A program made the position numbers and the translations under genes. Shown here piece by piece: positions 1-62,356 of a stretch of 64,000 nt of DNA. The DNA comes from Acanthochromis polyacanthus (Eukaryota; Chordata; Actinopteri; Pomacentridae). How positions within the stretch are numbered: position 1 is the first letter of the stretch; every line of letters begins with the position of its first letter. Location of the stretch: the NCBI RefSeq assembly GCF_021347895.1, contig NC_067115.1, forward strand, positions 10,316,064 to 10,380,063, read 5' to 3'. The notes below the pieces were generated by a model. The model was not told the DNA's origin. It searched no databases and was given only the letters and a program-made list of their open reading frames with translations.

Positions 1-421
1 GTATTTTGCACACTCAGGAATTTGTGCAATAACTGAATTTCCACATGTGGAAGGTTCTGTACAGTATCAACAGTATATTTCTTGCTTATTTTATCACATT
101 TGCTGCTCTAAGATTGTAAATTTCCCTGCTATGGGGCTTATAAAGGATTGTCTCATAGAGAAAATAATGCACATGTCCAGTGGATTTATTTAAATTACTT
201 CGGATAACCATGACCTGGATGAATGAGAACCTACACAGACAAATAATGCACATAGTTCAGCAGATAAATTTCTTCTCTTTACATATAGAGAAATTAGTGC
301 AGGATTATGGTACAATGCTTAAAGTAATTCTTAAGATATTGGTATTAGGACAACTTTACTGTATGTTGACTGCTGGAAAATGTTTTTTTCATACAAAATA
401 CTTTCTCCCCACCCCCTCCAG
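1..421 (+). other. mgarp intron, 3' end, with a short dispersed repeat
   Basis: This is non-coding sequence ending in a pyrimidine-rich tract and AG that form the acceptor of the large mgarp exon. Around 200-250 lies a motif reading ACCATGACCTGGATGA, followed shortly by CTACACAGACA. A close variant occurs again at about 15470-15510 inside an elf2 intron, so it is a small dispersed repeat. I see no coding exon here. Confidence 0.5.
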
Positions 422-3244
422 AATCTATGCCGGATCTGCTCACAGCTGTGAAGATCTTGGCCAGCTCTCCAGTTGAGATCGCAGCAGCTTCAGTTGGTGA
501 GACGAGTCTGGTGACAGCTGTCCGACAAATTGAAAGTGAAGAAAAAGTAGTGGAGTCCACACAGGAGGTGTTGGAACCAGAAGCTCTGGAGGCAACTCCA
601 GAGGTGGCAGCTCAAGAGGCATCGGAGGAGGCAGCTGCTGTAGAGAGCGAAGAGGAGATGAAGTCTGTGGAGCCTGAGGATGAAGCATTGGCTCCAGCTG
701 CAGGAGAAGAGATAACAGAGGAGACACCTGCTCCTGCTGTTACAGAAGAGGAGGAAGCTGCTGGTGCTTCTGAGGAAACTGCTGCAGGCCCCACAGTGGA
801 GGAGGCTGATGCTGAAGGTCAGGAACTGCAGACGGACACTGCTCCTGAAGATGCTGCTCCCACTGAGGAAGCTCCTTCTGTTGCGGAGGTCACCATTACT
901 GCTGAAGCTGCTCCAGTGGATGAAACATCAGCAGAGGAGGTAGCAGTTGGTGGAACATCAGCAGCGGAGGCAGGAGCTGATGAAACATCAGCACAGGAGG
1001 CAGGAGCTGGTGAAACATCAGCAGAGGAGGTAGCAGTTGGTGGAACATCAGCAGCGGAGGCAGGAGCTGATGAAACATCAGCACAGGAGGCAGGAGCTGG
1101 TGAAACATCAGCAGAGGAGGCAGGAGCTGGTGGAACATCAGCAGAGGAGGCAGGAGCTGGTGGAACATCAGCAGAGGAGGCAGGAGCTGGTGGAACATCA
1201 GCAGAGGAGGCAGGAGCTGGTGGAACATCAGCAGTGGAGGCAGGAGCTGGTGGAACATCAGTAGCAGCTGGTGGAACATCAGCAGAAGAGGGAGCAGCTG
1301 AAGCTCCAGCAGAGGAAGCAGTCATTGGCGTGTCTCAGCTGGCAGCGGCCTCCACTGGCCCGGACCTGGAGGTTCTTTCAGCTGCAGGACCAGAATCTCC
1401 AGTGCATGAAGAGGAACACTGCCACTCCTGCCACTCTGCTTCAGCAGCAGCAGCAGAGGAGGTGGCGCCATCTGCTGCTTTGGGAGAGAAGCCGGTCACC
1501 AAAGGAGCTCTGGATATTACACTTGAAGTCAATGAGGCCACATCACTGGTGGAGGGACAAGGTAAGAACACATACACTGCCCTTCAGCGACTGTCACATG
1601 ATACACAGTATATTCCTACAACTTTTTCAAATCTGAAGCAAGCGGTTCAACTTTTTGGGATTTACACAGAAGTGTAAATCATTTAGATGCAGTCAGAGAA
1701 TTATTCATTCACTCATTAAAAAAATTTGGAAATTAGCTGACAGAAGCCACAAAGGCTGAAATGTGGATGATTTGTTTTAATTTCAATACAGTAATGTCAA
1801 AGAAGGAGCTGGTCAAGCCTGACAGACTTATGGAATGGCAACCATGCACCCTAAAGGGACAGTACAAACGATTTGGAGATGAGGAAAAGTGATGAAAATT
1901 ATGTTTTACATGAAAAAAAGGCCAGACCAGTGAAGTGTTTTACCTGCAAGTGATGGTATACAAAATATAAAAAAACTCATGAACACTATAAAAAAGATGC
2001 TAGTAGTGACTGAAAATTTTTGTCATGTGACTATTTGTCAAAACTGAATCAGTCATGGCTGCTGAGCTCTGCTATGGAGCGTAGGAATTATTTCTTTCTG
2101 TCAGAATCTAGGGAGTACAAATGTTTGTTTTTGGCACAATTTTCAACACAACACAAAAAGTAAAATAATATTACTGAAATGTTACAATTGAAGAGTTTAT
2201 TTGCAAAAACAGATAACTCCATTTTATAAATTTTCAGAAAACTTATTTTTTATTGTTTATTTGAGATAATAATAATTATTATTATTATTTTTTGTCTGTT
2301 TTGTCATGTATTTTTATAGAGTCAAATCCACTCAACTTCAGTTTGATTGATATTATCTCAAGTAAACAATAAAAAAAACTTTTCTGAAAATTTATAAAAA
2401 TGGAGATATCCATTTTTGCAAATAAACTCTTCAGTTATAAGCTTAGATTTGGTTCAGTTCCCTGACGGAACCACACATTGCAGATGGTTGTTCAAGAGCT
2501 GTCAGAAAGCTCAAAATGTGACTCTTATTCTCTGGTTTTACAGTTTCTGACTCTGATAAATGGTGTTAATTTGGTGATTTTTTTTTTTATTTTAAAAAAG
2601 ACAACATGCCTTTAAAACCCATTGGCAAGTTTTGAGGTTTGGAGGGTTAAAAGAAAAAATATTGCCAACATGCAGATTCAGTGAAGGCTACTAAACAAAT
2701 TTTAAAATTAGAAACAAAGAAAAAAGTTTTCTAGCATTACAGGATGTAGTTGACTGATAACCACTGTTCAGGTTTGACCTTGAAAAGAAAAATACAATCT
2801 AGTTTTCTCTGTATTTGGCTCTGACCAGATGTATTTCTGCCTGCATCCACAGAGCCACAGGTGTCTAGCTGGACTGTAAAAAGCTGCTCAGTGATGTAAT
2901 ATTGCAGTTTAGAAGGTAAATAGTTTACAGCAGCACAGCTACAAACACAGCTGTCTGTGGAGAGTAGAATGGACATCATTCAGCATCAACATTTTACATA
3001 TTTAGAGGATGACGAGAGCAGTGTGCCTCAATAAAATTATGCCAAAACCACTACTTCCACCTGGTAAACATTACACAAGATGCTGCAATAAAAGCTGTGT
3101 AACAATGTCCATTCTACTTTTTTAAATTTGCAAAATCACATAGTTGTTTACACTAAACTAATGCATGTCCATCTCAAAAAGTTAATGTTGTGCTTGTGTG
3201 TTGTGGCCACAGGGACGATGGCGGTGGTGACGGCCCAGTCGTGA
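422..3244 (+). CDS. mgarp: mgarp (mitochondria-localised glutamic-acid-rich protein), last two coding exons
   Basis: Two exons are supported. The first runs 422-1561, after a pyrimidine tract plus AG and before AAG|GTAAGA. The second runs 3213-3244 after CCACAG. They join in phase and end in GTMAVVTAQS then TGA. The protein is very rich in Glu, Ala and Thr, with a repeated GTSAEEAGAG block and no recognisable fold. In mammals MGARP is a mitochondrial membrane protein with an N-terminal membrane segment and an acidic tail; it is linked to mitochondrial transport under hypoxia and to steroidogenic tissue. The upstream exons, including the membrane segment, lie outside the window. Assignment rests on composition and on position next to elf2 and noct, matching human MGARP-ELF2-NOCT, not on clear residue identity. 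If the intron at 1562 is retained, the frame stops at 1675-1677. Confidence 0.72.
921..1280 (+). repeat. 30-bp coding minisatellite in mgarp
   Basis: Eleven 30-bp units run 921-1250, each encoding a variant of the ten-residue block TSAEEAGAGG, followed by a shorter degenerate unit. Units 1-3 (921-1010) and 4-6 (1011-1100) are identical over 90 bp, showing a recent three-unit duplication. The units at 1131, 1161 and 1191 are also identical to each other. All units keep the reading frame. Confidence 0.95.
1562..3212 (+). other. mgarp last intron with foldback and dispersed repeat
   Basis: The intron lies between the two supported mgarp exons. It holds a long inverted repeat (2189-2270 against 2352-2433). 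This sits inside a dispersed repeat of about 2009-2660 whose relatives occur near 32600-32920 and 56990-57066. No additional exon was recognised. Confidence 0.6.
2189..2433. repeat. Long inverted repeat (foldback), about 82-bp arms
   Basis: The arm at 2189-2270 contains TTTATTTGCAAAAAC and ATTTTCAGAAAACTT. It returns in reverse complement at 2352-2433, separated by about 81 bp of AT-rich spacer. The arms differ by only a few substitutions and indels. It resembles the stem of a MITE or foldback element. No target duplication was located. Confidence 0.7.
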
Positions 3245-47181: not shown

Positions 47182-49374
47182 TTATCTCCCAGATGTTTGC
47201 TGAAGTCCAGCATATGTTGGTGCAGGAGTGTGCTGACATGTCCTAACTCCTGTCTCCTGATCTTCAGATGGTTCAACAGAGAAACTATCGACTCTAACAG
47301 GACACCATCTCTGCATTGACTTTCCTGCGTTTACCAATAAATCCTCCCTCCAGGCCTCCTGTAAACTCTCAAACAAGGCCTTAGTGTCCTGGTTGAACTG
47401 CTGGAACTCCTGCTGGTATCGGTCTTTGTGCTGCTTGGCTCTGCTCACCTCTTCTGTCATCTGTCTGATACAGAGATGCATTCTGCTGTTCTCCATGTTG
47501 ACCTCCTCCAGTTTCACATTGTTGTTATAGATGCTCACCTCCACGGCCGTCAGCTCTGAGGCCTGTTTGTCGAGCATGTCCATGTAGTGCTCTCTCAGCT
47601 CCTCCAGCTCGGACTTGAGTTGCTCTTTGGGCTGAAGCAGGATGCTGGTTTTCTCCTTCAGCCGCTTAATCGACATCTCCAGCTCAATCTTTTTCCTATT
47701 CAGCTCAAAAGCGTGCGCTTTCAGTTTCTCGTGCCGGTCTTGCGCCTCGTTCCACTCAGTCTCCACTTCCTTCAGCACCTCCTCTTTCCCTTCCACCTCC
47801 CTCTGCTTCTCCTCATTCCTCTTTGTGATACTCTCAACCTCTGTGGCAAACTGCTGGATTTCCTGCTCGTGCATGCTCTCTATTTGTCTGTACTCTAACT
47901 CAGACTGGTTAATATGGCTCATCAGTAAACCATCATGCGAGCTCTTGGGCTGTCTCAGCTGGAGCGCTGCCTCGTCTCGTTGCAGCTCCTCATATCTCCT
48001 CCTGGTGTCGCTGGTATCAGACTTCATTTTTGCCACGTACTCCTCCTGCTTCCTGTTCGCCTCCTCCAGGAGCTGACTGAGCTGGCGCCTCTCCTCCTCT
48101 AAATGGCTGATGTTCTTCTTCTCTGTTTTCACATTCTCGCATAGCTCTTCCTGATTCCTCTCAAACAAACGCTTATTGATAGTGTCTGTTTCCAGGAGTT
48201 CACCGATCAGCTTTTCCATCTCTTTGATCTCCTTGCTGTGTCTGACAATGGAAGCAATGCGCTCCTCCAGCTGCAGCTTGGACCGCTCCAGTTGCTGCAA
48301 CATACTGAGATACTCAGCCCTCACCTCGGTTTCTTCACGGTGCCGAAACTTGAACACCTCACAGATCTGAACCAAAGCGTCTTGACGGAGCAACCTTGAT
48401 GCCCGACCATCTTCTATTTTACCTTCAGCTGTGGTGATTTCCTCTTGAAGGTGCTGGACTGCAAGTGTGAAGGCTTCCCCTAACTCACGCAACTCCTTCT
48501 TCAGCGTTTCTTTCTGCTGCCTCAGCTCCTGATGCTTTTGGATTTCCCCTTCCAGCTTTTTCTCACACTGGCACCGAGACGCTGTCAGCCTTCGGATGTT
48601 GCTCTCCTCCTTGGCCATGTGAACTGTAACTTCATTCAGATGGTCAGAAGATTCTTGTTTCTTGCTGGTGAGTCTGTCCAGCTCTTTTCTGCGCCTCCTG
48701 ATCGCTTGATTCTGCTGCTTAATCGTCTCCCCGGCCTGGTCCACCTCTCCTGACAGGTTGTGGTTTTTCACAGAGAAAGCTTCTCTCTCCAGTGCCATGC
48801 TTTGCTCCAGTGCTACTTTATCCCGGTCCACAGCAGCAATGCAGGACTTGATCGCCTCTGTCCGCTCCCGTGTCTGATCCAGTTGTATCTGCGAGCTATA
48901 TTTGAGGGTGATTTGATCGTTCAGAGTTGCGATGACGGCTTCATACTCAGCCTTCACCTGTTCTCGCTCTGGCTGCAGCGCTTTGTTTTGGTTCAGAAGT
49001 TCCTGATGCCTCCTCATGGTCTCTTCTTGGAGCTGAGAAGCTGCGTTGAGCTCTTTGCGGAGCGTCTCTATCTCCTCAGCGTTGGACGCCCGGGCTGCCG
49101 CTATGTCTGTCATTATTTCCTCGGTCATTCGCTCGCGTATGCCGTTAATCTGGTGCCTCAGCTTGCTGTTTTCTATCGTTTCCACCTCTAAATGTTCGTG
49201 AGCAGCCCGCCTGTTCGCCTCCAGCTCGGTGATGGCAGCCGTTATCTCCGTGAAGTGGAGGCTGGCTTCAGGTGCGAACGGGACTCCCTCCTCTCTCAGC
49301 TGCTTGTCCAGCTCCTTTAAATGTTCCAGAGCCGCCATCACGGCCGGGAAGTCGGGAACGAGGCAAGAGGCCAT
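47182..49374 (-). CDS. ccdc175: Intronless coiled-coil protein resembling CCDC175 (730 aa)
   Basis: One uninterrupted frame from ATG 49374 to the stop gives 730 residues. These are almost entirely charged heptad-type coiled coil, with a non-coiled tail after about residue 690. The N-terminal block (ALEHLKELDKQLREE, then FTEITAAITELEANRRAAHE and HLEVETIENSKLRHQI) aligns in layout with human CCDC175. The C-terminal QEFQQFNQDTKALFESLQEA also resembles its counterpart. CCDC175 is a poorly studied protein expressed mainly in testis. The human gene has many introns, so this copy is either an ancestral fish form that lost introns or a retrocopy replacing it. The X-box promoter motif and long intact frame argue for a working gene. 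Family assignment is moderate, since coiled coils align easily. Confidence 0.7.
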   Translation of the reverse strand: MASCLVPDFPAVMAALEHLKELDKQLREEGVPFAPEASLHFTEITAAITELEANRRAAHEHLEVETIENSKLRHQINGIRERMTEEIMTDIAAARASNAEEIETLRKELNAASQLQEETMRRHQELLNQNKALQPEREQVKAEYEAVIATLNDQITLKYSSQIQLDQTRERTEAIKSCIAAVDRDKVALEQSMALEREAFSVKNHNLSGEVDQAGETIKQQNQAIRRRRKELDRLTSKKQESSDHLNEVTVHMAKEESNIRRLTASRCQCEKKLEGEIQKHQELRQQKETLKKELRELGEAFTLAVQHLQEEITTAEGKIEDGRASRLLRQDALVQICEVFKFRHREETEVRAEYLSMLQQLERSKLQLEERIASIVRHSKEIKEMEKLIGELLETDTINKRLFERNQEELCENVKTEKKNISHLEEERRQLSQLLEEANRKQEEYVAKMKSDTSDTRRRYEELQRDEAALQLRQPKSSHDGLLMSHINQSELEYRQIESMHEQEIQQFATEVESITKRNEEKQREVEGKEEVLKEVETEWNEAQDRHEKLKAHAFELNRKKIELEMSIKRLKEKTSILLQPKEQLKSELEELREHYMDMLDKQASELTAVEVSIYNNNVKLEEVNMENSRMHLCIRQMTEEVSRAKQHKDRYQQEFQQFNQDTKALFESLQEAWREDLLVNAGKSMQRWCPVRVDSFSVEPSEDQETGVRTCQHTPAPTYAGLQQTSGR

Positions 49375-49463
49375 GATTTGCCAGTCGTTTTGTTTGTTTT
49401 AGCTGCGTGGTTCTCGAAAGTGTGTCCGCGGCGTTAAAGTTCAGGAAGTTTCTACAGAGTGCT

Positions 49464-51721: not shown

Positions 51722-51962
51722 ATGGATCTGATCACCAAACCGAGGAGCAAGTCCGTCGTGTGGTTGTATTTTGGGCTGAAAGCAGATGACAAAGGGCAGC
51801 CTTTGAACTCCGAGGAGGCTGTTTGCAGGTTGTGCCGAAAAATAGTGCTGGCAAAAAGTGGAAATACCACGAATTTAAGAAGTCATCTGAGACGACGACA
51901 TCGTGCAGATCTTTTTGAGACCACTTCCCCCACGACCTCTGGAGCTTTGTTAGAGGCTCAAG
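51722..51962 (+). CDS. Exon encoding BED zinc finger 1
   Basis: It reads MDLITKPRSKSVVWLYFG, then a BED finger with aromatic W and YF, CRLC, and NTTNLRSHLRRRH. Donor AAG|GTGATT in phase 1 fits the acceptor at 53802. An in-frame upstream ATG at 51656 exists but probably lies before a splice acceptor at 51677. Confidence 0.88.
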
Positions 51963-54900
51963 GTGATTTAACAACTAATTGCGTTATTTCGTTGCAAAAA
52001 TATGCTAGAATGTAATGTGTGCATCATATTATTGTTTCCCAGCAGAGATCTGTAACTCCACATGCAGCTATCCTCCTTACAGCTGTAATATGCAACTACA
52101 ATGGGAGTCTGTTACTAGTGTTTTAAAGTTGGGTTCAACTGTAGAGCTGCTAAATGTAATAAACATAGGCCCTGATAATAATGCTGTTATTCAATTCAAT
52201 TCCAAGCATTTTATGTGTTCCCGAGGGGCAATTCAAAGGCACAGAGAGCAGCACATGGGATGCAAACAAGCATGAGCCTTAAACATAGAAACTGTTTTAA
52301 AAAATGCTGCAGTAACCAACCACATTCTAAGCAGTTGTGATTATCTAGGTCAATATATACTGTAAATTAGACTATAAGCCGCGACTTTTTTCTCATGCCC
52401 TGGACCCTGTGGCTTATCCAAGGGTGCGGTTAATGTATGGATTTTTACGGTCGCGCTTCATGCCCCCAATACGTTTTTTGCGTGGTCACATCAGACCAAT
52501 GAAATTACCGAACAGGGCACAGTGGACCAATGAAACTGTTCGAATAAAATCAAATTCAAGCGCACTAAATTCTTCAGATCAGTTATTTTGGGCTTCATGC
52601 ACACAACCTCATCATGGAGAATCCAAGAAGAAATGCATACAACGCGGCCTTTAAGTTAAAAGCAATCAAGCTAGCTGTCGAGGAAGGAAATAGAGCTGCT
52701 GCACGTAAGCTTGGCGTTAGCGAATCGATGGTGAGACGTTGGAGAGGGCAGCGTGAAGAACTGACTCGATGCAAAAAGACGAGAAAAGCTTTCAGGGGTA
52801 AAAAATGCAGATGGGCCGACCTTGAAAACGTTCTTGAAGACTGGGTGAACACACAGAGAGCAGGCGTTTCCACCGTGCAGATGAGAATGAAAGCCAAATC
52901 AATCGCCACCGAAAAGAAGATTGAAGATTTTAAAGGTGGACCATCTTGGTGTTTCCGATTTATGAGGCGAAAAGGCATATTCATCAAGGCACGGACTAGT
53001 TCGTGTCAGCAACTCACTCCCGACTACGAGGAAAAACATACAAACTCCTGCAAATTCATTCAAACAAAGATAGCCGAGAATTCCATCGGACCAGACGACA
53101 TCATAAATGTGAAAGAAGTACCTCTGACGTCTGACCTGCCTCTCACTCCGACTGTTAACACGAAAGGTGAATCGTCCATCATGCTGAAAACAACTGGCCA
53201 TGAGAGAATGCATTTCACTTGTGTTCTGAGCTGCCGTGTTACTGCACTGTCAATGCCATGTTACAGGCACTGTTTTTTTTTAAAAAGCATTTGTTTAATA
53301 AAAATTTGTATAAATATCTCTTATTACAATGTGGACACCTGCAGCTTATATTCAGGTGCGCTCAATAGTCCGGAATTTACGGTAATTGAGGGACTTTTGT
53401 ATATCTTGCATACATTTTTATTAAAGGCGTGAAGAATTTATGTTGTGTAAAGTATTGAGAGAAACAGTGGCAGAAAGTCAGAATGTAAAAAGAAACAATG
53501 ATGCTATAGCAAGTTAAATAAAGTTTTCATGGTCGGGGAGTTAAATACCATGGACTGAAACAAACTCAAAGCTCCTGTCTTTGCTGTACATACCTAAAAA
53601 TGTTGCACCTGTATTTTTTAATGTAATATTTCTATTGTTGAACAGTAATATTGCATTTTAATACAGCAACATCCACAGAGGATCATTGTTGCCTTTCTGT
53701 TCTTGCATCTAAAATGATGAATTTACCCGCATTGACTGTCAGCAATATCTCACCATAATTCCATATTTCACTATTTCTCTGCTGTGTTTTTTTTCCCTCC
53801 AGGTTTGGATCTAAACCAAGAGGAACTCTTTGAGGATGTTCCCTGCCTCCAAGCAGCCTCCAACCAGAACTATGTTCCAGATGCAGTGCTGCCGCCTGGA
53901 GAGCCGTGGCTCCGTGGCGGTCCTTATCGGGCGGTGCTGTCACTGCCCTCCTGTCTGTGCCTCTGTGGGGATGTGGGATCTGGACTATCTGGTCCTGGAT
54001 CTGCTGGCGAGGAGCAGATGGGGGAGATGAAAGTGTTCGCCAAGTGTCACCTGCAGCAGGGCGTTATGTTCGGGCCATTTGTCGGGGAAGTGTGCAAAGG
54101 ACAAATGCCAGCCAACCTCAAATACGCCTGGGCTGTGAGTAGACCAACTGATTATTTTTCATACAGGATTGTGGAAACAGTATTTTAACCTACAGTGGCA
54201 GAGCTTCTATCTCCAGCTCTTCCTTCCTCATGAAGGAAGGTGAGTGTGAATTTGCAGAAAACATAAACTGCAGTGCATCACAGCTAAGATGTGCAAACCA
54301 GCTAATCACATCTCAGATTAAATAGAAACCGTAAAGAAGAGTTACGTGTTAGGATGCGAGGGGCAAAATTACTTTTACTATTTTCTAAATTGGATGTAAG
54401 GAAGTCAGAGAACCGAGGTCAGCCAGCAATAGTGGTGACTCTTTATTATAGTTATGTTATTACAGTCAGACTCTCGGATTAAAAAAAACTCACTTATATA
54501 AGAAAAAAAGCACTATAATCCTTTTTACACATAAAAACTTAATTTCAAAAGCAATAAAATGCAGTTTTAGTTGATCTAGTATGAACACGGTGTCCGCTAA
54601 TTTTAGCTGACTTTAATTTAAACAATTAATGCTGTGTGACTGACATTGCAGACTCAGTTCTTCTGAATCCATTACTCATATCTACTTATGCTACTGTTTA
54701 ACTACCATTTTTGTACAGGATACCAGTTTTATGGTCTTACTGCACATCAGACTGAAATAGCTGTGTATTGCTGGCCTCTGTGGTTGAAAATTTAAATGAA
54801 ACGCCACGATTCCTTAAAGTTAAGCAAGATATTACACCTAGAACTATAAGTTAGCAAAAAACTTTTTTTGACATGTCTCAAGTTACTCTTGAAATGAAAA

Positions 54901-57900
54901 TGCTCATATTTTGAATGATTAATCAATCCTTTAAGCCTCTGGGGCCTCATTTATAAAACATTGCGTTTGATCCATACTAAAAGTTTGCGTACGCCGAAAA
55001 TCTGAAATGGGCGTATGCCCTTCGCCCCTGATTTATAAAACTGTGCGTAAGCACAGCTGCACGCAATTTCTTAATAAATCACACACCAGCTGGAAGATTG
55101 CACAGGTGGATCCACCTCACATTCCGCCCACAACACACCCACATTTTACCATGAATGGTCAATGCAAAGTAACTCATGAATGTATCTGTATATAAATAAG
55201 CTGCTGATCCACGGCATTTCACGCAGCGCCGGCCTGCAGTCTTTTCACTGCTGTGCGTCAGGATGAATGAATCATGTGTTGACCCAGGCCAATCTGCCAC
55301 TAAATTTGTTATGATCATGTCCGAAGTACAAATAATTTGTACACTGATTGAACGTACATTTTTTCGGTTCACATAGACAAATGAATTTTCACTCGGAGCC
55401 CTTACAGCAGCATGAGTGCAGTCAGTTACGCCGATTACATTTGGGAAACCGGACATCACTGCAAATTGCCGTTTAATGTTGGCCTGTTCACCCACAGTGT
55501 AAGGAAGCCTGATGTATTGACTGGTCATGTTTATAATGTCATCAAAACAGCTGGCATTATTGCGCTGAGGGATGGTTGTGATATCCCAGACCTAAAGGAA
55601 ATCATTTAACTGTATATCAGACCCAGATAGGATTTAGACAACAAATGAAACCTCATATATTCTTCATATAAAACACATACCTGTCGACCACTTCCCGCTG
55701 GAAGGAGCCGGTGTCGCCAGAAACCCCGGAGTCGTCAGCTCCTGTGTCTGTACCGGGATGGCGTGGTTTCGGCGGGTGGGTCGGTCTAAGACGGCCCAGT
55801 TCAGTACGTAGATCCAAGAGCACTGCTTTGGGAATCTGAATCGGCTTATTCGCCGGGAAATCCCCGTGATCCCTAAAATCTCTCTCCATTCTTAACGTGA
55901 TCTTCCAGCAATGCCAGCGCATCCATTGTGCCACATTACACACGGCTGTCACCCGCTATTTATCCGCTTGATCAGCGATTGGACTGATTGTCACATGCCT
56001 TTTCCATGGTAATCACTGATTGGTAATCAATCAGTGCCACTCACCGCTCTATATCATTTGAAGATGGAAGTTTGATATATGAACATAGTTCTGCAAATAC
56101 AGTTGTAGGCCGAATGGCGCACTATATGAACATCTACAACAATGAGGGTTTATGATTATTCGGCTCTACAAGTCTAATATGTGATAACAATACAGGTTTG
56201 AGATCAATCTGGTTTCAATTCACCACTTCACCCTCCGGCACTGCCGTTCCCTCTGTCTCCAAAATGTGCTTAAGCAAACATCAAAGTTGGCGCACTGGTG
56301 CGCACATTCTCACGCCAAGTTTGTTTTTAGAAATCACAATGTACACAGTGTACGCCACTTTCTACGCAAAGGTTGTGATTTAAGCCACTTTCTAGCCCTG
56401 TTTTGTGCGTATGTAAGCATCAAGAATCAAGGTTGGCGCACCGGTGCGCACATTCTCACGCCAAGTTTGTTTTTATAAATCACAACCTTTGCGTAGAAAG
56501 GGGCGTACGCCACTTTCTAGCCCTGTTTTGTGCGTACGCAAGCTTTATAAATGAGGCTCCAGAGCTCCAAGCACTCTCTAGGTGTTTTTGGATCCTGTCA
56601 CATTTTTACTTTCCTGTGTTTTTTTTTTTTTATACTGCAATATAAAGTCCTGCACCTCTATGGAAACAGCAAAACCACGCCTAGGAGAGAGAACCGACAA
56701 ATGTCCTCTGTGCAGTATGATAAAGTTTTATTGCCATAAATCCTAAAATGTATAAATTCCTGGATTGTTTACATAAATTCAATAAAGCTGGAATCAGCAT
56801 GAACAGCATTTTGTATTGAGTCTGTATAGTCTCAACTGAGTCACTAATGGCATCACAGTTGTGCCAAAACTTTACATTTTTCTGTCTTTTACAAGAACTG
56901 GTTAAGTACAAATACTTTATTTTTTTTAGATGTTTATGATATGTATGATGTAAAATGATATGTATTGATATGCTTAGATTTGGTCAAGGTTAAGACAGTT
57001 TCTGGCTCTGACAAAGGGTTTAATTTTTTATTTTTTTTAAAAGATAGTATATGCCTTGTAAACCCTTCTTGTTTGCTATGGTGATGGACAGGATGACAGA
57101 AGAAGTTAGACAGGAGTCTCCATGGACTATGATGTTTGCAGATGACATTGTGATCTGTAGTGAGAGCAGGGAACAGGTGGAGGAGAAGCTAGAGGCGTGG
57201 AGGTTTGCCCTGGAAAGGAGAGGAATGAAGGTTAGCTGCAGCAAGACGGAGTATCTGTGTATGAATGAGAGGGACCCAAGTGGAAGAGTGAGGTTACAGG
57301 GAGAAGAGATCAAGAAGGTGGACGATTTTAAGTACTTAGGGTCAACAGTCCAGAGCAATGGAGAGTGTGGGGAAAGAGGTGAAGAAGCGTGTACAGGCAG
57401 GCGGGAACGGCTGGAGAAAAGTGTCAGGTGTGATGTAGGCGTGGGGGGTATTACGGTAATACCATATACTGCCGGTGTTTAAAAATAGCAGCGGTATCAG
57501 TTCCAATACCATCAGATCAATATATACCACAAGATCCCGCACGGAGTGACTTTGTGTCAAAAAAGAACACAACTTCTGCAGTCTGGGAGTATTTGAGGTT
57601 CCAGGAAAACGAGAAAGGAGAGCTGGTAAATACTGATGAAGCAATTTGTAAATTTTGCAATCAAAAGGTGATCACGAGAGATGGAAACACCTCTAACCTA
57701 AGGACGCATCTCCGAATCAACCACCCACTCACTGCTGCGAGTATTCAATTTCCGAACGTGAAGGCACAAGCCAGTAACAGTAATAGTCATGGTAATACCG
57801 TATACCCCGGTAAAATGTGAAGGAAGTTTGACGGTATCAAAATTTGGATACCGCCTAAGCCTAGTGTGATGTGTGATCGAAGAGTTTCAGCTAAAATGAA

Positions 57901-60900
57901 AGGAAAGGTTTACAAAACTGTGGTGAGACCAGCCATGTTGTTTGGTCTGGAGACAGTGTCCCTGAGGAAAAGACAGGAGGCAGAGCTGGAGGTAGCAGAA
58001 CTGAAGATGCTGAGGTTCTCTTTGGGAGTGACCAGGATGGATAGGATCAGGAATGAGTACATCAGAGGGACAGCACATGTTAGAGGCTTTGGAGATAAAG
58101 TCAGAGAGGCCAGACTGAGATGGTTCAGACATGTCCAGAGGAGAGAGAGTGAATATATTGGTAGAAGGATGCTGAGTTTCCCACTGCCAGGGAGGAGGCC
58201 TAGAGGAAGACCAAAGAGGAGGTTTATGGATGTGGTTAAAGAGGACATGAAGGTAGTTGGTGTGAGAGAAGAGGATGCAGAAGACGGGGTTAAATGGAGG
58301 CAATTGATTCGCTGTGACGACCCCTGAAGGGCAAAGCTGAAAGGAAAAGAAGAAGAAGAAGATATGCATTGTAAACCCTCCAGCAGGTGTTGGAGTTCAG
58401 AGATTAACAATTTCAGTTCTGTAAACTTGAAATGTTGTTCAAGCTAAATTTGCTTCTGCTTGTATTTGATTCAAATTTTGTATCGTGTACTTTAATAAAA
58501 AAAAAAATTCTGACTCTGAAATTTTCTTCTTCTTCCAGATCAGGGATGATGCTGCTTTCATATATGTGGATGCCTCTGATGAGAACGTATCAAACTGGAT
58601 GAGGTGAGCAGTTATTGTCTTGTCTCTCTGATTATTGTTGTTGTCTGAATGGTCTTACCTCGCTGATTAGTTACCTGCTGTGTGTGTTTGCTGTTTCAGG
58701 TACGTAACATACACCAGCAGCGAAGACAAACACAACCTGGTGGTTTTCCAGTTTTACCGTCACATCTACTACAAGGTTTCCCAGCCTATACCAGAGGGGG
58801 AAGAGCTCAGGGTCTGGATTGGGAAGGAATACGCCACTCTTCTGGGCCTGGGGATGGGTGAGTTCTGTCCCACTGGGTGATGGATACATACTAGCTCAAC
58901 ACTTTGGATTTTTCACTTAAGCAGGGAGTTCATTTCTCTTCAAACTGAAAATACAGCTTGCTAACATTTGCCCTGTACTTTTGTTTTTGGTGGTGAGTTC
59001 AGGTGACAATGTGAAATGTGAAGTTGGAGACAAGGAAACAGCTCTGCGCCTCCTGCAGGACATCCAGCTGGTCACCCTCCCAGAGCCCAGCAGCACTTCC
59101 CTTTGGTCGGACCAGAGCCAATCACAGAGCCCCATGCCTGTCATCAGTGACGTGACGACGATGTCAAACCCGGATGCAGCCAGCGATCCCGGCATAATTT
59201 CTGGCTCCATCCTTCCCTCCACCTCCCTAATCTGCGCTCCCTCTCCTGGCTGTCACTCGAGTGAAAAGTACGATTTTCTGCCTGGAACTGAGAAATTGCT
59301 GAAGAACCCAAACGCCCCTCCGAGCAGCCCGTGGTACTTTTTTGGGTTCGAGCCGGACCCGACCGGCCGTCCTCTGGATCGAAGCACCACAGTGTGCAAA
59401 CTGTGTGTGGAGCAAGTGGGCTGTGCAGGAGGAGTCACCGATCTCCAAAACCATCTGCTTAACAAGCACCACATCAGACCACGTGACAAAGATCGCAGTG
59501 TGACAACAGGTAACTGTCATTCTCCTGCTTCTGTGTTGCATAATAGATAACGGTGTTAAAGCTGCAAGACTAGAGGAAAGTACAAGGTTATCACAAGTTA
59601 TTTTTGTAGATTTCACTATATGTGTCACACGAGTGCCTGAGTCCGAGGGCTAGAGAGGAAGTGGCGTTGTCATCCGGGTGTTTACGCTCCTTCTGCAGGG
59701 AGTTATGTACAATTTCTATCAGTTATAATCTTTTACTCACCGGAGTAAGTGCAGAGATGTGAATGCAGAAACATCACTGCAATGAAGTCCAGCACAGCAA
59801 AGAAATGTGCAGTCAGTCCAAATACAAGTAAAATACAAACCAAGCGTTAAACCACAACATATTTGAAGGTCAGTCTACAAGTTAGCACACCGAAAGTGTT
59901 AAAAGTAATAATCCTTCATTTATAGCTGAACGATTATGGCAACAATGACAATACATAATTTTAGGCTCAAAATATTTTTATTACACTTCCACATTTTCCT
60001 CGTCATATTTTTATGCATAAAAATAAAGACTGCTCCTTCTTCACAGAGCATCTTGCTAAATATGATGAAACTCGTACCAAAACGTCGCTGGCTATTTCAT
60101 TATGCAGTTGCACTTTCATTATTTGAAAAACAGTGAGCTGACAGCTGTGAGCTTTTAAGTAGAGTAAATTTACAAATGGTAATTTAAGCCATAATCTTGC
60201 TAATTGTTGCTGAAAGAAATGATGACTAAAATTAGACTAAAATTCTACAGTCATTCAAACACCTCTCTGAAATCTGTAACTCATCCTGAAGGGTATATGA
60301 ATGTTTCTACAGATCCATAATATAGCAGTGAAGGCGTTTCTTTTACGACCACCAGAGAAAGTCAGTTTCATAATTAGTTTTCACCAGTTGTCAGGATTCG
60401 TCAACCTGGAGCCATGAATTGTAGCAAATTTTGTGCCAATCTATTCTGTTGATGCTGAGACATTACTTAGTACAGGTGAACAGTTTGACTTACAGATGGG
60501 GCTACAGGAAAACTTAGAGAATCACCCTCATCTGTAGGGCGTAGGACTTAAAAATGTAATTTAATAGCAGCACTGCATTCAACCAACCAAAATTAATATG
60601 ACAGTTCACAGTGCTACACAACTGTCATGGCTAAAAATGAGAAAATTTTCTTTTACCCAACCTAGACTTCTTTGGTTATGGAGATGAATTTCTTGTCAAA
60701 ATGAGTCTGAAAACCGCTCTTTTTTTTTTTTAAACCAAATGTACAGGTTTACCCAATTAAGTAACATGTAGTAGAGAACAGAATTGATCTTCTACTTGAT
60801 CAGACGTTGCTAAACTGTTGAAGCTTATTTTCTGACTGACAATCTATGTTTTTGTCATTACAGGTCAACAACGCTCTCAGCCGATGATGCTTACCAGCGG

Positions 60901-62356
60901 TTTGCTCGGCACACTGCCCCTGGTTTTATCTGCTCAAGTGACTGATGCCATCGCCAACTTTCTCATCTTGGACCTCCAGCCCCCAGCTCTGGTAGAAGGG
61001 GAAGGCTTCAAGCAGCTGCTCCACACCCTCCTGCCTTCCTACAAGGAGCTGCTTTCCTCTTGTCAGCTCGAGGACCTCCTGAAAGACCACCACGCCAAAG
61101 GCAAGACGAGTCTAGCTCAGCTGTTGAGGCGGAAAACTGGGAGCATTGAGAGCGAAGAGTTCAGTGACCACACCGCTCCCATCGAGTTTGAGGTCAGGAG
61201 ACGTGGCCGACCTCCCAGCAGATGGAGGGAAGTTCCTCACTTTGTTACGTTGAGTGGAGATGTTTGGCTCCATAACTGGCAGGGCAGCACTGAGAGGTAC
61301 CTCACCCTGTGGGCGCACTACACAGACGGTCATTTTCGTTGTCAGAATCTGGCCCTTACAACCCAAAGACTGACAGAGAGTGGAACGAAGGACTACAGCC
61401 TTCGAGCAGTGGAGGCCCAGGTGAAGGTGATAGCACATGAATGGGGAGTCTCTCAGCCCAATCTGGTCTTACTGGGAGGAGAAGGGAGAAACGGGATGAG
61501 GTTGGGGACGATAAAGAGTGAGAAGGGCGGGGAGTCTGCAGCAAGTGTCTATCATCCAAACTCCACGACATTTCTGGAGCGGGATGACTCTGTGTGGCCT
61601 GAGGAGCCGCGTGCCTCAGAGTATGGCCATTCCAGTAGCCGACTTCCACCTGTCCCATGTTTCTTCAGTGCTGTCCAGGGATGCATTGAGGAAGTTATGG
61701 CACACCCCACAGTCTCTAAAACCCTCAGCCAGTTTCAGAATATTCTCTCTGCCCTGTTCCTGCCAACTGCCCACAACAAAAGCTTGTATCATCCTCACAG
61801 CCAGAGCCTCTTGGACGACCTGACGAAACAGGAACAGGCCGGACTGAAGTCGTGGGCTCACAGCCCGCCGACCTGGAATAAGCTGTACCCTTTACTGAAC
61901 ACGCTCATCAAACATAAAAGCCTTGTGTGTGACATAATAAGAGAGATTAAAACTGAGGGTCTCTCCGGAGAAGATGCTGCTTCAGAGTCCAATTCATCTG
62001 GCAGCTGCCATGCAAACTCTACTTCCAACACCTCAGCAAGCATCTCAATGTTGCGTTCTGAGTGGAAGGTTCTGGAGGAGCTCTGCTTGGTCCTCAAACC
62101 TCTGGACGTGGCTTGTAGAACTCTCGCCAAGGAGGCCTTCCCTCGCCTATCACTCGTCAAACCCATTCTCACCGGCTTGCTGTCACGCCACCTTGTGTCC
62201 CGGCCCGGAGATTCATCATCCATCTTGAAGGAGGTCAAGAGGATGATGAGGCAGAACTTGGCAAGCTGTTATGACAACCCTGCTGTGAACAGGGCCCTGA
62301 GTGTGGCATGTTCCCTCGATCCACAGTTCCACGGGCTGGGCTTCATGGAGGCGAAG
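51722..62356 (+). CDS. BED-SET-BED-hAT fusion gene, 3' end outside the window
   Basis: Six exons join with perfect phase: 51722-51962, 53803-54134, 58539-58603, 58700-58857, 59003-59509 and 60864-62356. They give 932 residues still open at donor AAG|GTGAGT. Order: BED finger 1 (residues 11-62; Cys 35/38, His 55/60), PRDM-type SET (about 150-265; GPFVGEVCKG, NWMRYVTY, HIYYKVSQPIPEGEELRVW), BED finger 2 (about 375-422; CKLC and HLLNKH), then a hAT transposase core (about 442-932). The transposase keeps VEGEGFKQLLHTLLPSY, the first catalytic Asp (LSGDVW, about 567) and SLDPQFHGLGF. Its expected D-N-A motif reads LGGEGRNG, and an RGRP AT-hook is present. This suggests a nuclear DNA-binding chromatin protein derived from a transposase. 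The start is chosen at ATG 51722 (AACATGG). The missing 3' exon(s) should encode the hAT dimerisation region. Confidence 0.85.
51963..53802 (+). other. Intron 1 of the BED-SET gene
   Basis: Holds a truncated pogo-like element (52360-53382). The rest is AT-rich, ending in CTGTGTTTTTTTTCCCTCCAG. Confidence 0.7.
52360..53382 (+). mobile_element. Internally deleted pogo-like (Tc1/mariner superfamily) transposon
   Basis: The ends CTGTAAATTAGACTATAAGC and, in complement, CCGTAAATTCCGGACTATTG flank the element with TA at both sides (52358-52359, 53383-53384). The ATG at 52614 opens an intact frame reading NAAFKLKAIKLAVEEGNRAA and ARKLGVSESMVRRWR. This is a CENP-B/pogo-type helix-turn-helix, followed by a second one (WADLENVLEDWVNTQRAGVS). 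The catalytic part is cut off shortly after IMLKTTGHERMHFTCVLSC, so it cannot be an active transposase. Confidence 0.85.
53803..54134 (+). CDS. Exon with first half of the SET domain
   Basis: Begins GLDLNQEELFEDVPCLQAAS. The second half reads KVFAKCHLQQGVMFGPFVGE, typical of the N-terminal part of PRDM SET domains. Donor GGCT|GTGAGT, phase 0. Confidence 0.88.
54941..56560 (-). mobile_element. Harbinger (PIF) transposon, decayed
   Basis: Terminal GGGGCCTCATTTATAAA and, in complement, GGAGCCTCATTTATAAA form the inverted ends. On the minus strand, transposase pieces match HARBI1-type proteins. MERDFRDHGDF and SFQREVVDR (55952-55683) are followed by a GTATGT intron. Then come SGISQPSLSAIM and FPNVIGVTDCTHAAVRAPSE through WPGSTHDSFILTHSS (ending near 55265). 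A frameshift near 55540 and loss of the C-terminus make it non-functional. Confidence 0.85.
56272..56560. repeat. Two 146-bp tandem repeats at the right end of Harbinger
   Basis: GGCGCACTGGTGCGCAC at 56289 and GGCGCACCGGTGCGCAC at 56435 mark equivalent points. CACGCCAAGTTTGTTTTT and CCACTTTCTAGCCCTGTTTT also recur with the same 146-bp period. Each unit contains a palindrome around GTGCGCAC. Confidence 0.85.
57067..58363 (+). mobile_element. 5'-truncated LINE with reverse transcriptase fragment
   Basis: The reverse transcriptase active-site block MMFADDIVICSESREQVEEK is followed by KVDDFKYLGSTVQSNGECGE. After a hAT interruption the frame resumes KMKGKVYKTVVRPAMLFGLE and ends WRQLIRCDDP, with a GAAGAAGAAG tail. 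A frameshift near 57375 moves the expected VKKRVQAG reading out of frame. The 16-bp target duplications ATGCCTTGTAAACCCT and ATGCATTGTAAACCCT lie at 57051-57066 and 58364-58379. A second truncated copy is at 35327. Confidence 0.9.
57436..57863 (+). mobile_element. Small hAT element carrying an intact BED finger, inside the LINE
   Basis: The ends TAGGCGTGGGGGGTAT and, in complement, TAGGCTTAGGCGGTAT are flanked by 8-bp copies of GTGTGATG (57428-57435, 57864-57871). Removing it restores the LINE reading KVSGVMCDRR. Inside, an 88-codon ORF (57554-57820) encodes a BED finger: SAVWEYLRF, ICKFC, NTSNLRTHLRINH. The rest of the transposase is missing. Confidence 0.9.
58539..58603 (+). CDS. Small SET exon with NWM
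   Basis: Acceptor TTCTTCCAG, donor ATGAG|GTGAGC, phase 0 to 2. It encodes IRDDAAFIYVDASDENVSNW and M, the conserved VDASD...NWMRYV region of PRDM SET domains. Confidence 0.92.
58700..58857 (+). CDS. Exon with the end of the SET domain
   Basis: Encodes RYVTYTSSEDKHNLVVFQFY and HIYYKVSQPIPEGEELRVWI, then GKEYATLLGLGM. The position that is Tyr in the WYG motif of active PRDM proteins such as PRDM9 is Ile here. Confidence 0.92.
59003..59509 (+). CDS. Exon with linker and BED zinc finger 2
   Basis: A Ser/Pro-rich linker is followed by SSPWYFFGFEPDPTGRPLDR, CKLC and TDLQNHLLNKHH. The fold is a BED finger with a Cx2C...Hx4H pattern, at about 59329-59472. Phase 1 to 1. Confidence 0.9.
59510..60863 (+). 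other. Intron 5 of the BED-SET gene
   Basis: About 1.35 kb, AT-rich. No mobile element with clear ends and no exon were recognised. Confidence 0.6.
60864..62356 (+). CDS. Exon encoding the hAT transposase core
   Basis: A single 1,493-bp exon. It contains ANFLILDLQPPALVEGEGFK, the AT-hook EVRRRGRPPSRW (61193-61228), and VTLSGDVWLHNW with the first catalytic Asp. LTLWAHYTDGHFRCQNLAL follows, then the altered LGGEGRNGMRL, EWKVLEELCLVLKPLDVACR and RALSVACSLDPQFHGLGF. It ends in phase 0. Its length without introns fits the capture of an intronless transposase. Confidence 0.9.

Follow-up and report, generated by a model that had tools for sequence, protein, structure and literature searches.

Fusions of host domains with transposases are a recognised source of new regulators, and the best-known example carrying a SET domain, SETMAR, is found only in primates. 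A 64,000-nucleotide stretch of the Acanthochromis polyacanthus genome (contig NC_067115.1, positions 10,316,064 to 10,380,063 of the forward strand; the window, to whose first letter all positions below refer) raises the question of whether a fish gene of this kind exists and what its protein would do, since an earlier note, made from the letters alone, had described at 51722-62356 a SET domain fused in one gene with a hAT transposase that carries two BED fingers. In this study, we found that a host-type domain and transposase domains share one spliced coding frame there, that the parts are akin to the PR/SET domain of PRDM9, to BED fingers and to hAT transposases, that orthologues are widespread in teleosts, and that catalytic residues are changed in both modules. 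The product is probably a DNA-bound PR scaffold, derived from a PRDM9-type PR domain, BED fingers and a hAT transposase, that would serve as a transcriptional or chromatin regulator.

The gene lies on the forward strand and comprises six exons within the window (932 codons, no stops), with GT-AG sites throughout and agreeing phases upon splice-site check; coordinates, splice sites and translation all agree with the 932-residue frame of the earlier note. Exon 1 (51722-51962) holds the start codon and BED finger 1 (BED1; residues 1-80, zf-BED E 4e-13) and rests also on splice site and phase. Exon 2 (53803-54134; residues 81-191) holds a pre-PR segment and the first part of the PR/SET domain and is 88% identical to the Amphiprion (clownfish) orthologue P0001. 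The middle of the PR/SET domain is encoded by exon 3 (58539-58603; residues 192-213), where the P0001 alignment is ungapped near the junctions, and its end by exon 4 (58700-58857), which includes an altered catalytic position (VWIGKEY, against VWYGDEY in PRDM9). Exon 5 (59003-59509; residues 266-435) contributes a post-PR block, a Ser-rich linker and BED finger 2 (BED2), and exon 6 (60864-62356; residues 435-932) the hAT body. Introns 1 to 5 measure 1840, 4404, 96, 145 and 1354 bp, respectively. Pfam analysis of the window protein recovered both BED fingers and the PR domain PF21549 (E 3e-34, residues 152-262), in accordance with the two fingers and the PRDM-type SET domain noted before. The gene extends past the window: exon 6 closes at a GT donor and P0001 is 1159 residues long. 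Residues 936-1159 of P0001, which include the hAT dimerisation region, gave no tblastn match within the 64-kb window.

The 932-residue product was searched against a protein space of 5.8 billion, in which 7993 word-sharing candidates were scored and 140 clusters passed a cutoff of E <= 1e-3; 120 of these were listed. All named matches among the 120 are teleosts, including salmonids, pike and percomorphs, and the presence of orthologues outside this species, on which the earlier note had made its proposal depend, was thereby established. Identity among the matches listed ranges from 42-45% in Oncorhynchus and Esox to 90% in Amphiprion ocellaris (LOC111585152), and medaka, killifish, platyfish and stickleback are also represented. 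Precomputed Pfam annotation placed the PR model in 112 of the 120 and the PR and hAT-dimer models together in 102. The orthologues are labelled in databases as uncharacterized, 'E3 SUMO-protein ligase ZBED1-like' or 'Histone-lysine N-methyltransferase PRDM9'. Being common to salmonids, pike and percomorphs, the gene is open to deep-time study and to work in laboratory fishes.

For eight PR-bearing proteins among the matches listed, the source is an 'lgn' contig (3.4-4.9 kb) whose open reading frame runs for 986-1196 residues without interruption; seven contain sequence from all six exons, some with small junction gaps, and the eighth lacks exon 1. Because the genomic gene spans more than 10 kb, these contigs look like assembled transcripts, processed copies being a lesser alternative. 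In a quick-method tree of 46 rows (the window protein and 45 relatives hand-picked for length and spread), each of 7/7 taxonomic groups, labelled by genus name and fish taxonomy, formed one side of a branch, and 10 rows were ungrouped. This is as expected for a vertically inherited host gene, and on sequence grounds the gene is vertically conserved as a fish host gene. A survey of host-transposase fusions in tetrapods is cited in msaf097, a 2025 MBE screen for domain fusions. Judged by title and abstract start, no paper on a PR/SET plus BED/hAT gene was among the open-licence papers listed; the supplementary table of msaf097 may list the gene.

Conservation and residue counts were taken from an alignment (A1) of 54 orthologues, hand-picked for length and spread out of the 120 listed matches. 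The PR domain is among the best conserved parts of the protein (median 0.82), and its nearest solved structure is that of PRDM9 (E 4e-21), followed by PRDM2, PRDM11 and PRDM1. The catalytic tyrosines of PRDM9 are given as Y276, Y341 and Y357 in eLife 24133. At the Y357 position the orthologues have Ile (48), Val (4) or Met (2) and never Tyr (0/54); the Y276 position is Phe in 34 and Tyr in 20, and Y341 is Tyr in 54/54. The position of PRDM9 N320, which we take to be a cofactor contact, is occupied by Thr (43), Arg (4), Ala (4) or Ser (3) and by Asn in none. When 177 fetched proteins were scanned by pattern, the Y357 position was located in 105, again never as Tyr (I 97, V 6, M 2); among the 72 non-matchers, 62 were without the PR-domain motif SNWMR and the remaining 10 had Ile or Val there. 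As the Y357 and N320 positions are changed in all 54 orthologues, methylation by the PR domain looks lost or altered. Of the tethered histone-binding or methylating module that had been suggested, the methylating part therefore lacks support in the form proposed, and histone binding is kept below as a conditional role.

A paddlefish protein, P0176 ('PRDM9-like', 234 amino acids, no BED), bears on the origin of this PR domain. Using the salmon protein to search for PR domains brought it up at 53% identity. It shares the Tyr-to-Ile change at the Y357 position and carries a post-PR block identical at 13/27 residues to that of the salmon protein and at 13/30 to that of the window protein, with 0/5000 shuffles as good in each case. 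Its structure matches are PRDM9 (E 8.5e-46) and then PRDM11 (E 2e-37), and its N-terminal Cys/His segment, presumably a zinc knuckle, matches that in both structures. P0176 clusters with the fish fusion family with support 100/99; in our interpretation it is related to the gene as it stood before the fusion. The family's placement relative to PRDM9 and PRDM11 had support 71/47 in one tree and was without resolution in a second, from which human PRDM2, human PRDM4 and Muraenolepis were left out. A PR domain with an N-terminal Cys/His segment is also a likeness to PRDM11, whose match scores fall below those of PRDM9; PRDM11 is not known to carry hAT or BED domains.

For the transposase-derived parts, the CCHH ligand positions of BED1 (median conservation of the finger 0.78) are kept in 53-54 of the 54 orthologues, counts that include four rows with a different BED (three pipefishes and a sole), and those of BED2 in 51/51 rows with letters, three rows being gapped. 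BED1 matches the ZBED1 BED structure 2ct5 (E 2e-6). No hAT core was recognised by Pfam in the window protein; P0001 has the hAT dimerisation region (PF05699, E 7.5e-7), and this C-terminal region is strongly conserved among the 54 orthologues. Predicted models contain the RNase H-like hAT fold, with 14% identity to Hermes over the fold, which agrees with the hAT body read from the letters alone. The full-length AlphaFold model of P0001 is poor (predicted local distance difference test score, pLDDT, 51; PR region mostly <50) and that of a BED-hAT relative, P0142, is better (pLDDT 67), so the fold assignment appears to lean mainly on P0142 rather than on the window sequence. The hAT catalytic Glu, which we take to correspond to Hermes E572, is replaced by Ala (44), Val (7), Thr (2) or Ser (1), and by its absence in 54/54 the gene was not counted among the active hAT transposases.

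Comparison with known systems places the gene beside several families. According to NAR gky937, SETMAR (Metnase) is a primate fusion of SET with Hsmar1 in which transposase catalysis lacks a key residue and DNA binding is retained. The fish gene likewise combines a SET-type domain with a transposase that has lost a catalytic residue, but its SET domain is of the PRDM/PR type and probably impaired, its transposase is a hAT with BED fingers, and it spans salmonids to percomorphs with a strongly conserved hAT dimerisation region. Membership of SETMAR was rejected because the transposase is not a mariner; the design is an independent analogue, as had been proposed. By its single spliced frame and its vertical conservation the gene belongs to the host-transposase fusions, and it would function like a SETMAR-type regulator. 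With PRDM9 it shares the closest solved PR structure, a PR domain split over three exons as in teleost PRDM9 (BMC Biol 02059-w) and catalytic tyrosine changes as in PRDM9-beta (eLife 24133). Unlike PRDM9, no KRAB or SSXRD Pfam match was found in the window protein or in orthologues P0001, P0023 and P0109, nor any C2H2 family at thresholds of E 1 (window protein) and 0.1 (the three orthologues); of the PRDM family features, the PR/SET domain is thus present and the C2H2 zinc-finger array was not found, BED and hAT replacing it. Xiphophorus PRDM9-beta carries Y341F and Y357P in the same eLife text, whereas the fusion family keeps Y341 in 54/54, Xiphophorus P0060 included, and the two are therefore separate genes. 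PRDM9 membership was rejected, Y357 never being Tyr and KRAB/SSXRD not being matched. Domesticated BED-hAT genes of the ZBED1 type share a BED finger, hAT body and dimerisation region with the fish gene, and differ in that here a PR/SET domain lies between two BED fingers and the hAT core is very diverged, without a Pfam core match. Hermes, as a hAT, differs in its catalytic Glu, in the low identity over the fold and in having no added PR domain.

We also sorted 108 fetched SNWMR-bearing proteins, with our own score cut-offs, by the sequence preceding exon 2: 72 start with BED1, 18 with a whole or partial Crypton-type DUF3504, 2 with both, 1 with a pogo-type helix-turn-helix (HTH), 3 with almost nothing and 12 with other sequence, several of the last being truncated or misplaced models. 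Five more proteins, with the Y357-region pattern and no exact SNWMR, were left unclassified. The DUF3504 model, which we assume to be of Crypton origin, occurs in 15 of the 120 matches listed; the segment in P0023 matches PF12012 (E 5e-11), and tblastn with P0003 and P0023 gave no DUF3504 match within the 64-kb window. In Anarrhichthys, predicted isoforms P0037 and P0009 of LOC116392948 begin with DUF3504 and BED1, respectively, so the two are alternative starts of one gene there. Judged by eye, the 12 include an unrelated BED in pipefishes P0103, P0107 and P0113 and another in sole P0051. In Phycodurus, Syngnathoides and Stigmatopora (P0148, P0158, P0162, P0164) a Myb/SANT domain stands ahead of the hAT part, with BED and PR gone; the post-PR linker is still present in the Phycodurus and Syngnathoides proteins. 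The proteins concerned are mostly automatic gene models, which makes the turnover of N-terminal modules a strong lead rather than proof.

On the reading that we favour, a PRDM9-type PR/SET gene would have become linked to a hAT transposase and BED fingers and then been inherited vertically in fishes. BED1 and BED2 would bind DNA, the hAT C-terminus would mediate dimerisation, and the protein would have ceased moving DNA. The PR domain, with weak or altered methylation at most, may be kept in place at the targets to interact with proteins or histones, giving a nuclear, dimeric, sequence-specific DNA-binder that acts on transcription or chromatin; it may recognise what is left of hAT element ends, or host sequences that evolved later. 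Strong conservation of the PR domain together with changed catalytic positions indicates a binding or scaffold role, and the changes at key SET and transposase residues make a regulator likelier than a DNA-moving enzyme. Several observations weigh against this reading. Y341 is kept throughout and Y276 is Tyr in 20/54, which leaves room for some enzyme activity; most orthologues retain the first hAT catalytic Asp (residue 569; D49, E5 of 54), so the hAT active site is erased only in part; and the different BEDs in 4/54 rows (three pipefishes, sole) and the syngnathid relatives without BED and PR mean that BED1 and PR are not essential in every lineage.

The retained Y341 and the high conservation of the PR domain would also suit an active SETMAR-like writer that methylates histones (e.g. 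H3K4) at BED/hAT-bound sites, the more so as compensatory substitutions appear to preserve H3K4me3 activity in PRDM7 despite a Y357 change (eLife 24133). We consider this unlikely, as both Y357 and N320 positions are changed in 54/54 and PRDM9-beta genes with catalytic tyrosine changes are likely to lack some methyltransferase activity (same text). Slightly less improbable is a genome-defence repressor, which would bind the ends of related hAT elements, silencing these elements or forming dead dimers that block live transposases. The dead transposase with its conserved dimerisation domain, the diverse N-terminal modules, as shifting targets would favour, and the resemblance of a BED fragment in intron 2 to BED1 (24/59 residues; salmon BED1, 32/60) speak for it, but in most lineages the conservation of BED1 does not fit an arms-race domain. 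Capture and movement of a SET domain by a hAT transposon, live now or until recently, would account for the kept hAT fold and first Asp, yet catalytic Glu is found in 0/54, the gene tree tracks species taxonomy, and the gene has six exons and five introns in A. polyacanthus; we regard this as highly improbable and rejected it. Still harder to credit is a gene-model artefact merging neighbouring BED1-SET and BED2-hAT genes, which we also rejected: although intron 2 is long and contains transposon debris, SET and BED2 are separated only by the 145-bp intron 4 and exon 5, exon 5 itself joins the post-PR block to BED2, and the same arrangement recurs among teleosts. Short contigs with uninterrupted frames link all parts rather than carrying the two halves separately, which bears out the single gene of the earlier note.

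The DNA-bound PR regulator that we favour would mean that a PRDM9-type domain was retargeted through a transposase in place of zinc fingers, and its probably non-catalytic yet strongly conserved PR domain makes the role of PR domains without methylation directly testable. More tentatively, the gene might be a further ray-finned member of the PRDM9 clade that exchanged its zinc fingers for targeting by a transposase and turned into a platform for module swapping, in which a PR and hAT-dimer scaffold repeatedly gained mostly transposon-derived domains at the phase-1 acceptor of exon 2. Under this speculative extension the DNA-binding domains gained there could be BED1, the unrelated BEDs, DUF3504 and the pogo HTH, and Myb/SANT might have replaced BED and PR in the seahorse relatives, perhaps in a contest with transposons. 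If the turnover is real, the gene documents how a single splice site has captured DNA-binding domains from transposons time and again.

Other features of the window were recorded. Intron 1 contains an open 287-amino-acid pogo/Tigger-type transposase frame (52569-53432, +; HTH_Tnp_Tc5 E 2e-10) between the BED1 and PR exons, and the Monopterus model P0059 has a 52% identical pogo segment at its start, joined to exon 2; the two are probably independent insertions. The BED fragment of intron 2 mentioned above (57545-57730, +; zf-BED E 3.5e-9), probably transposon-derived, lies within sequence (about 57048-58327) that by eye resembles the remains of a long interspersed nuclear element (LINE) reverse transcriptase, and no inverted repeats were found around it. 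Intron 2 also holds a transposase fragment (55079-55591, -; DDE_Tnp_4 E 1e-11), which we take to be of Harbinger type. Just upstream of the gene, on the opposite strand, an uninterrupted 738-amino-acid coiled-coil frame (47182-49398, -) is possibly a CCDC-type gene. Near the window start, an open reading frame at 370-1677 (+), with another at 819-1334 (-), contains Ala/Gly/Glu-rich internal repeats, with several frames open.
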